From contig VGAZ01000006.1 in the NCBI GenBank assembly GCA_016870615.1, positions 1 to 40,275 on the forward strand: a stretch of DNA of 40,275 nucleotides. Reading direction: 5' to 3'. The DNA is from Actinomycetota bacterium (lineage in GTDB: Bacteria; Actinomycetota; Humimicrobiia; Humimicrobiales; Humimicrobiaceae). Positions 3,163-5,493 of this stretch are shown here, piece after piece; position 1 is the first letter of the stretch, and each line of letters begins with the position of its first letter. The position numbers and the translations under genes were made by a program. The notes below the pieces were generated by a model. It was not told the DNA's origin. It did no database searches and was given only the letters and a program-made list of their open reading frames with translations.

Positions 3163-3794
3163 GGCTTATACTGCTTGGCGCGCCTGGCGCCGGCAAGGGG
3201 ACACAGGCAAAAAATATTGTGTCAAAATTTAAAATTGCGCATATCTCTACAGGAGATATTTTAAGGGATGAAGTTAGAAACAGTTCCGGGCTTGGAATAA
3301 AAGCCAACCAGTATATGAAAGAGGGAAAGCTTGTCCCTGATGAGCTTATAATTGAAATTATCAGGAATATGCTGGTAAAAGGCGGCGGTAAAAGCGGTTT
3401 TTTAATGGATGGTTTTCCGAGGACTATGGTCCAGGCTGAAAAATTTGATGAAATGCTTGCAGGCCTGGGGCAGTCAATAGATAGAGTTATAAACATTTCT
3501 GTGGATAGCGAAAGGCTTATAAAAAGGCTTACTTCCCGAAGGGTTTGCAGTAGCTGCAATAATATATGCAGCATAAGCAATAATGAAGAGGACAAGGAGG
3601 GCTGCCCATCATGCGGAGGCAGTCTTTATAAAAGGAAGGATGACCGGGAGGAAGTAATAAAACACAGGTTAAAAGTTTATGAGCAACAGACAAAACCACT
3701 TATAGATTATTACAAAAAAAGCGGGCTTCTATTTGAAGTTGACGGCTCAGGAACTGAAACAGCAGTTACGGAAAGGATACTTTCAATCCTATGA
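3159..3794 (+). CDS. adk: Adenylate kinase, zinc-LID type
   Basis: Interconverts ATP + AMP and 2 ADP in the cytoplasm. 211 residues: P-loop GAPGAGKGTQ (7-16), AMP-binding region (TGDILRDEV), DGFPRT (84-89), and a long LID with four cysteines, C130-x2-C133 and C149-x2-C152, which in this family bind structural zinc as in many Gram-positive bacteria. Overlaps secY upstream and map downstream by four bases each, so secY-adk-map is a tightly coupled unit. Confidence 0.97.
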   Translation: MRLILLGAPGAGKGTQAKNIVSKFKIAHISTGDILRDEVRNSSGLGIKANQYMKEGKLVPDELIIEIIRNMLVKGGGKSGFLMDGFPRTMVQAEKFDEMLAGLGQSIDRVINISVDSERLIKRLTSRRVCSSCNNICSISNNEEDKEGCPSCGGSLYKRKDDREEVIKHRLKVYEQQTKPLIDYYKKSGLLFEVDGSGTETAVTERILSIL

Positions 3795-4555
3795 TTATAT
3801 GCAAGTCGTCAGATGAGATAAAGCTGATGGGGCAGGCAGGTAAAATAGTAACAGAAGTTCTTTTACAAATTGAAAATAGTTTAAAACCGGGGGTGCAGAC
3901 TTTTTTTCTTGATAAACTGGCAGAAGGGTTGATATACAAAATGGGCGCTCTGCCTGCTTTTAAGGGCTATATCGGTAAATTAAATTCCACGCCATACCCG
4001 GCAAGCATATGTGTTTCCATAAATGAAGAAGTTGTTCATGGAATCCCGGGGAAAAAAACAGTTAAAGAAGGAGATCTTGTATCTGTTGATGTTGGGGTAA
4101 AATACCGGGGTTATTATGGAGATGCTGCAAGGAGTTTTATAGTCGGCGATGCAGATAAAACTGTCCGTAGATTGTTTGATGCTACTCTTGATGCGCTTAA
4201 CAAAAGCATTGATAAATGTGTAATCGGCAGCCGTCTTTCTGATATATCCCACGCAATTGAGGCAAGAGCGCAGAAGGATAATTTTTCCGTGGTTCGCATA
4301 TTTGTAGGCCATGGCATCGGGAAAAGAATGCATGAGGATCCGCAGATATTAAATTACGGTCCCCCTGGACAGGGTCCTCCTCTTAAAAAAGGAATGGTGC
4401 TTGCAATTGAACCTATGCTTAATGCGGGAACTTCAGATGTTGAAGTGCAGCCTGATAACTGGACAGTTGTTACTGCTGACAGGAAACTATCCTGCCATTT
4501 CGAGGATACAGTGGCAATAACTTCTGACGGTCCATTAATTTTAACCAGGGGCTGA
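3791..4555 (+). CDS. map: Methionine aminopeptidase type I
   Basis: Removes the initiator methionine from nascent proteins. 254 residues, pita-bread fold without an N-terminal extension (type Ia). All five metal ligands can be read: D100 (SVDVG), D111 (YYGDAAR), H174 (GHGIG), E207 (AIEPM) and E238 (FEDTV); H83 in the substrate pocket is also present. ATG overlaps the adk stop (ATGA). Followed by 97 bases of non-coding DNA before infA. Confidence 0.97.
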   Translation: MIICKSSDEIKLMGQAGKIVTEVLLQIENSLKPGVQTFFLDKLAEGLIYKMGALPAFKGYIGKLNSTPYPASICVSINEEVVHGIPGKKTVKEGDLVSVDVGVKYRGYYGDAARSFIVGDADKTVRRLFDATLDALNKSIDKCVIGSRLSDISHAIEARAQKDNFSVVRIFVGHGIGKRMHEDPQILNYGPPGQGPPLKKGMVLAIEPMLNAGTSDVEVQPDNWTVVTADRKLSCHFEDTVAITSDGPLILTRG

Positions 4556-4588
4556 ATTAAAAAGTATAGACTTTTTTTTGATTATTTG

Positions 4589-4628
4589 ATAACCTACATG
4601 TTTGCGCCTTAAAATAGGGTGTAGTTAT
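4589..4628 (+). promoter_or_regulatory. Possible hairpin in the infA leader
   Basis: The map-infA gap holds an inverted repeat: ATAACCTACA (4589-4598) can pair with TGTAGTTAT (4620-4628) with one bulged base, enclosing a 21-base loop. It ends 12 bases before the infA Shine-Dalgarno AGGGAGG. There is no following U-run, so it does not look like a terminator. A role in controlling infA is only a guess. Confidence 0.35.
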
Positions 4629-4652
4629 TTATAATTTAACAGGGAGGCCAAT

Positions 4653-4874
4653 ATTTCTAAAAAAGAAGGCATTATTGAGGCTGAGGGCACAATTCTTGAA
4701 TCTCTGCCGAATGCCATGTTCAGGGTCGAGCTTGACAATGGACATAAGGTACTGGCGCATATCTCAGGCAAAATGAGGATGCACTATATAAAAATACTGC
4801 CTGGAGATAAGGTAAGAGTGGAAATTTCACCATATGACCTTACAAGGGGACGTATAACATTCAGGAAAAAGTAG
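4653..4874 (+). CDS. infA: Translation initiation factor IF-1, apparent ATT start
   Basis: OB-fold factor that binds the ribosomal A site and works with IF2 and IF3. 73 codons including the first, matching normal IF1 length. After the start it reads [19 protein letters not shown] and contains the family core [19 protein letters not shown] and [12 protein letters not shown]. The codon at the family's Met position is ATT (4653-4655). An in-frame TAA lies at 4632-4634 and no ATG, GTG or TTG occurs between it and the ATT; the next in-frame ATG is residue 22 (4716), inside the fold. AGGGAGG at 4641-4647 is 5 bases upstream of the ATT, ideal for use. ATT initiation is otherwise best known for infC. 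A sequence error at the start cannot be excluded. Confidence 0.93.
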
Positions 4875-4991: not shown

Positions 4992-5105
4992 ATGAAAGTA
5001 AAACCATCAGTAAAAAAAATATGCAGCAGCTGCAGGATAATAAGGCGGGAAGGCAAAGTAATTATTATTTGTAAAAATCCCCGGCATAAACAAAAACAGG
5101 GTTAA
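4992..5105 (+). CDS. rpmJ: 50S ribosomal protein L36, zinc-binding form
   Basis: Smallest large-subunit protein, 37 residues, basic. It begins [14 protein letters not shown] and carries the zinc-ribbon ligands C11, C14, C27 and H32, so it is the zinc-containing (C+) form. AAAAGGA precedes the ATG, and the stop TAA overlaps the AAGGAGG of rpsM. Position between infA and rpsM is canonical. The 117-base gap upstream has a GC-rich patch (about 4915-4935) and an AT-only inverted repeat (4948-4966) of no clear meaning. Confidence 0.96.
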
Positions 5106-5118
5106 GGAGGTTTTTAAG

Positions 5119-5493
5119 TTGGCAAGAATTTCAGGAGTAGATATTCCGAGGGATAAACATATTGTAATTGCCCTCACTTATATTTTTGGCATTGGCAAAT
5201 CGCTGGCAGAGAAAGTACTTAAGGATCTGGGTATTGACCAGGCAAGGAAAACCAGGGATTTGACTGAAGATGAAATAATTAAAATAAGGGCATATATTGA
5301 TAATAATTTTAAAGTCGAAGGTGATCTTAGAAGGGAAGTCACCCAGAATATAAAAAGGCTGATTGAAATAAATTCCTACAGGGGGATAAGGCATAAAAGA
5401 GGCCTGCCTGTAAGGGGACAGAGAACACACACAAATGCAAGGACAAGAAAAGGCAGGAAAAGATCTGTAGGAATAAAGGCAAAAGCAAGATAA
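5119..5493 (+). CDS. rpsM: 30S ribosomal protein S13
   Basis: Head protein of the small subunit contacting tRNA and S19. 124 residues: helix-two-turn-helix N part ([25 protein letters not shown]) and the basic C terminus [20 protein letters not shown] followed by a lysine/arginine tail. TTG start supported by AAGGAGG at 5104-5110. Confidence 0.97.

Follow-up and report, generated by a model that had tools for sequence, protein, structure and literature searches.

Does the gene for translation initiation factor IF1 begin with AUU in a deep actinobacterial lineage, and what would such a codon mean for the synthesis of the factor? The question is raised by infA in the window, i.e., the whole stretch of 40,275 nucleotides from an Actinomycetota bacterium that has been analysed here. 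Autogenous control via a forbidden start codon is textbook knowledge for infC, and we know of no such start-codon autocontrol for bacterial infA. IF1 is an abundant protein and AUU is normally a weak start, which counts against an infA start at AUU under feedback control.

The infA Locus

The genes of the window follow the usual order adk, map, infA, rpmJ, rpsM, rpsK, rpsD, and the following features are of relevance here:

3791..4555, plus strand: map, type I methionyl aminopeptidase with ATG start, upstream of infA (TIGR00500, 299 bits)
4586..4615, plus strand: weak sigma-70-like promoter candidate (TTGATA, 18 nt, TAAAAT), part of a block kept 5' of infA in most relatives
4632..4634, plus strand: in-frame TAA stop, 21 bases 5' of the infA ATT
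4641..4647, plus strand: Shine-Dalgarno site AGGGAGG, ending 5 bases before the ATT
4653..4655, plus strand: infA start codon ATT, read directly and conserved in relatives
4653..4874, plus strand: infA (IF1, TIGR00008), 72 residues after the start residue, TAG stop at 4872-4874
4716..4718, plus strand: first downstream in-frame canonical codon of infA in the sequence, ATG, codon 22
4993..5106, plus strand: rpmJ with ATG start, downstream of infA, a control for canonical starts
5119..5493, plus strand: rpsM with TTG start, a further control for canonical starts

The sequence-only reading had described an intact, full-length IF1 frame with ATT at the first-Met position of the family, a stop 21 bases upstream with no ATG, GTG or TTG in between, and a well-spaced AGGGAGG, and each of these points has been confirmed. 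The 72 residues encoded downstream of the ATT score 129.8 bits with TIGR00008 (infA), against a curated cut-off of 61.15, and cover the full length of the model (positions 1-69 of 69), which identifies the product as a member of the IF1 family. The ATT is followed by the codons TCT AAA AAA GAA GGC ATT ATT GAG, and the six codons between the TAA and the ATT read TTT AAC AGG GAG GCC AAT. A start at the ATG in 4716 would cost IF1 its first 21 residues and is therefore too late for the whole protein. AUU is very probably the true start codon of infA.

Further upstream, a block at 4565-4615 (TAGACA/TGGACA ... TTTGATAACCTAC..TTTGCGC) is kept 5' of infA in most loci of the family and may represent an internal infA promoter after map, and a terminator-like stem at 4602-4624 overlaps it. 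The promoter signal itself is weak, with three promoter-like sites upstream of infA vs. 1.6 in shuffled sequences. Folding of the infA leader RNA in the window has been found to be no better than in shuffles (z 0.77), and consequently no structural regulator is claimed.

Conservation of the Start Codon Within the Class

The genomes compared are 40 members of the window's class of uncultured Actinomycetota, from three families and 17 genera, and the infA start is readable in 37 of them. It is ATT in 31, ATA in four (family f3) and ATC in two, and the canonical ATG, GTG or TTG, which would have spoken against the earlier proposal, has not been seen at this position inside the class. Aligned loci show ATT, ATC or ATA (ATH) in 36/36 cases, and the 37th genome, G037, carries ATA. 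The Shine-Dalgarno site, predicted to be kept along with the codon, is preserved as well, since the score before the ATH codon is ≥5 in all 36 loci and ≥6 in 35 of them at a spacing of 4-7, values which are reached at 10% and 3.5% of random positions, respectively. Residue 0 of IF1 is I-coding in 36/36 loci and is followed by [SAPT][KEN]KE, so that the ATH codon marks the beginning of protein conservation; the six codons ahead of it (-6 to -1) include stops and are not conserved. An internal Ile codon as the cause of this Ile conservation has been excluded by the closed frame and by the lack of conserved upstream residues.

The genes adjoining infA behave differently. ATG has been found as the start of map in 18/18 and of rpmJ in 28/28 readable related loci, and all 25 readable rpsM starts are canonical (TTG 19, GTG 5, ATG 1). 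That infA is never canonical although map, rpmJ and rpsM stay so points to selection for the non-canonical codon class. The infA gene thus shares with autoregulated genes of the infC type an AUH codon as sole usable start, a Shine-Dalgarno site at normal spacing, and a conserved non-canonical codon of a kind that the genome does not use generally. The start codon, its conservation, the Shine-Dalgarno site and the absence of such codons from the adjoining genes are well supported by the sequences compared.

AUH Starts in Other Genes of the Lineage

Start codons of the same group recur in a small number of other genes, class-wide for infA, nearly so for infC, in two families for rplU and in one for rsmD. 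For infC, a canonical start is absent from the stretch of 22 in-frame codons displayed ahead of the conserved motif in 29 of 30 class loci, and most loci carry ATT, ATC or ATA after a Shine-Dalgarno site. The gene encoding bL21, rplU, has ATT, in one case ATA, behind a strong Shine-Dalgarno site in 30/30 loci of family f1, mostly without a canonical alternative, and ATT in 4/4 genomes of f3; it has ATG in f2 (loci L088 / G000:C8 near 15249 on the minus strand, L302-L331 and L443-L446). The 16S m2G966 methyltransferase gene rsmD starts with ATT, ATC or ATA in every f1 locus read, with TTG in f2 and with ATG in f3 (L410 / G000:C12 near 24750 on the plus strand, and L382-L411). Of the gene products, IF1, IF3 and RsmD are connected with the fidelity of initiation, and bL21 is not.

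Several loci depart from this picture. The infC of the window's own genome (L081 / G000:C3 28594-29113) has no canonical start, and its nearest ATH codon is an ATC separated from GGGAGG by 12 bases; this spacing is unusually long and leaves the codon a candidate start only. In genus g6, infC (L061, L064, L068, L069, L070, L080) shows TTT or TTC in frame after AGGAGG where the relatives have ATT, and the g6 ATT lies one base upstream and out of frame. ATT or ATC has also been seen as the apparent start of ruvB in a few members (L417, L419, L437), and other members, the window's genome among them, have ATG; owing to this variable start, ruvB has been rejected as a further conserved AUH gene. The frr gene of the window's genome (G000:C18) possibly starts with ATT after GGGGTGA, but a GTG overlaps that Shine-Dalgarno-like stretch, and frr in G012 starts with ATG.

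Feedback Control or a Fixed Weak Start

IF3 discriminates against AUU, AUC and AUA but not against AUG, GUG and UUG, and both IF3 and IF1 counteract the locking of the 30S complex when its ligands are non-canonical (PMC4611024). As IF3, helped by IF1, rejects precisely these codons, infA should respond to the strictness of initiation. The AUU of infA would be recognised by the ordinary initiator tRNA and fixed as the start by the strong Shine-Dalgarno site, which would give adequate output from a weak codon. Translation would then be repressed when initiation is strict, with IF1 and IF3 plentiful, and relieved when it is lax. The result would be negative feedback as in infC, here reaching IF1 and, within family f1, also RsmD, with the supply of IF1 tied to IF3 and to the accuracy of initiation, which the cell may monitor and adjust in this way. 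IF3 is the main discriminator in such a system and IF1 its accessory, and a sensor consisting mainly of IF3 with IF1 as a helper is a candidate arrangement. We infer that infA output is controlled by IF1/IF3 activity in this organism, and we consider it rather likely that AUU is the real infA start and places IF1 under this start-codon discrimination feedback, as for infC. The infC-like control suggested by the sequence-only reading has been supported in part.

The most serious competing explanation accepts AUU as a real start and regards it as fixed and weak, either a translation dimmer or the product of drift in a tolerant lineage, with no feedback from IF1 or IF3. It is favored by the conserved ATT of rplU, a non-fidelity gene, in both f1 and f3, and by the ATH codons of ruvB in some genomes; together with perhaps frr, these genes suggest that the lineage may simply tolerate weak starts. 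A precedent is given by E. coli pcnB, which like infA here has an AUU start and whose expression is limited by it (PMC1780047); unlike for infA, an expression limit is all that is described, and the product is not an initiation factor. For lepA of Borrelia and of B. licheniformis, an AUH start has likewise been inferred (PMC1780047). Against a fixed weak start, the infA codon varies among ATT, ATC and ATA over 37 genomes and never becomes ATG, GTG or TTG, and the other conserved AUH genes include infC and rsmD, both of which are tied to initiation fidelity. We regard a fixed weak start as a genuine though less probable explanation.

RsmD is linked to initiation through the m2G966 that it makes, which contacts the initiator tRNA, and loss of RsmB/D relaxes the scrutiny of initiation (PMC7949028). 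One may tentatively postulate a class-wide fidelity circuit in which IF1, IF3, RsmD (in one family) and rplU carry AUH starts and lower accuracy raises their synthesis. This extension is more doubtful than the feedback on infA itself. Since rplU has no known role in start-codon choice, the AUH set may mix genes under feedback with simple weak starts.

Position of Initiation and Generality of AUH Starts

Initiation could alternatively occur elsewhere, i.e., at an upstream non-canonical start or by coupling or frameshifting from map. In 32 of 36 class loci, no ATG, GTG or TTG lies between the ATH codon and the preceding in-frame stop; the remaining four have an in-frame GTG or TTG at -7 or beyond, which would allow an upstream start, but these codons are unconserved and no upstream residue is conserved with them. 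In the window, a stop closes the frame 21 bases 5' of the ATT, about 97 bases separate this codon from the end of map, and the Shine-Dalgarno site is correctly spaced for the ATH codon in all loci. Considering any frame, a canonical codon at -8 to +12 occurs in only 3/36 loci, in each case out of frame and immediately next to the Shine-Dalgarno site (-8 or -7). Initiation at a place other than the AUU is thus very unlikely.

A general reading of AUU, AUC and AUA as ordinary starts throughout the genomes of the class appears more improbable still. Several genes besides infC do use such codons, but the large number of AUH-after-Shine-Dalgarno genes to be expected from an altered initiation code has not been found. 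Genome-wide, Shine-Dalgarno sites are no commoner before ATT than before other non-start codons, and are clearly enriched before ATG and TTG. Of the 482 pairs of orthologues compared for the window's genome (728 kb sampled) and the relative G012 (1.49 Mb), those with a shared Shine-Dalgarno-preceded start are mostly canonical in both genomes (135), and conserved ATH starts without a canonical rival are confined to a few genes. The initiator tRNA of G012 is standard and has three G-C pairs in the anticodon stem, which has ruled out an altered initiator tRNA; with an ordinary one in this relative, start-codon discrimination is expected to operate. Canonical neighbours, the lack of an ATT excess, the few ATH pairs and the ordinary tRNA together indicate that ATH starts are gene-specific. 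A one-base sequencing or assembly error at the infA start, for which only the fragmented state of the draft genome (235 contigs) would speak, is of negligible probability, as it is refuted by the same codon class with all three third bases in 37 independent assemblies.

Distribution Outside the Class

Over 397 Actinomycetota genomes, the strict in-frame pattern of an ATH-started infA has given 35 matches, all in the window's class. With a looser pattern of the same spacing, 37 matches have been obtained over the same genomes, of which two lie outside the class (G305 and G321). TTG follows the ATH codon in G305 and is its likely start. The G321 locus (C361:2416-2475, minus strand) reads ATC CTG GCT AAA GAA and is ambiguous, with CTG or ATC as possible start; G049 from the same family has TTG at the infA start. 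The other common N-terminal spacing of IF1 combined with an ATH start has been found in 0/397 Actinomycetota genomes. An ATH codon as the only possible infA start has been found in none of the ~358 out-of-class Actinomycetota genomes, G321 being ambiguous, as far as the strict pattern can tell, which with DTG in place of ATH matches 24 of 136 out-of-class genomes and hence samples just part of the phylum. Among out-of-class infA loci that have been read directly (14 taken, 12 parsed), 11 show ATG, GTG or TTG at the homologous position or beside it, and L037 offers only a distant TTG.

A degenerate DNA scan of all genomes for a Shine-Dalgarno site, ATH and IF1 has returned at least 120 matches. 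It seemed to place ATT-started infA in many Clostridia, a candidate that has been rejected because 109 of the 120 matches listed are canonical (almost all TTG) and reflect an out-of-frame A-TTG. The other 11 of the 120 listed are real in-frame ATH starts (L129, L147, L151, L160, L163, L175, L185, L205, L206, L220, L240); these resemble the window's class, and all titled ones among them are Actinomycetota MAGs, e.g., ADurb.Bin346. The apparent lack of ATH-started infA beyond Actinomycetota is judged from these listed matches.

Comparison With Known Non-canonical Starts

The closest parallel to infA here is E. coli infC, likewise an initiation-factor gene with an AUU start, against which IF3 discriminates and thereby represses its own synthesis (PMC5472188; PMC9410913). 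The two differ in that the feedback has been demonstrated for infC, whereas we infer it for infA. Among actinobacteria, infC of Streptomyces starts with ATC, and sigR with the non-canonical GTC, which is repressed by IF3 (PMC5472188); unlike infA here, sigR encodes a sigma factor and its GTC is not a class-wide feature of a deep lineage. The S. aureus genes infC (AUA), cvfC1 (AUU) and ccpN (AUA) resemble the present case in their conservation and their strong, extended Shine-Dalgarno sites, but their starts have been mapped experimentally and none of them is infA (PMC13009471). A non-AUG start of infA itself has been described for chloroplasts of Chlorella and tobacco, where UUG is used with low efficiency (PMC9845219). 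In contrast to the bacterial gene, this is an organelle gene, and UUG counts as canonical with respect to IF3 discrimination. Within the open-licence full-text literature, this chloroplast UUG start is the only infA case encountered, and no report of a bacterial infA starting with AUU (ATT) has been found.

Implications

For annotation, gene finders limited to ATG, GTG and TTG truncate or miss the essential infA in this lineage, and likewise rplU, rsmD and infC. Should the proposed feedback be true, IF1 would, after IF3, become the second initiation factor for which control by the start codon of its own gene is known. The class-wide start of infA within the group of codons rejected by IF3 and IF1 offers a natural test of the reach of the feedback principle.
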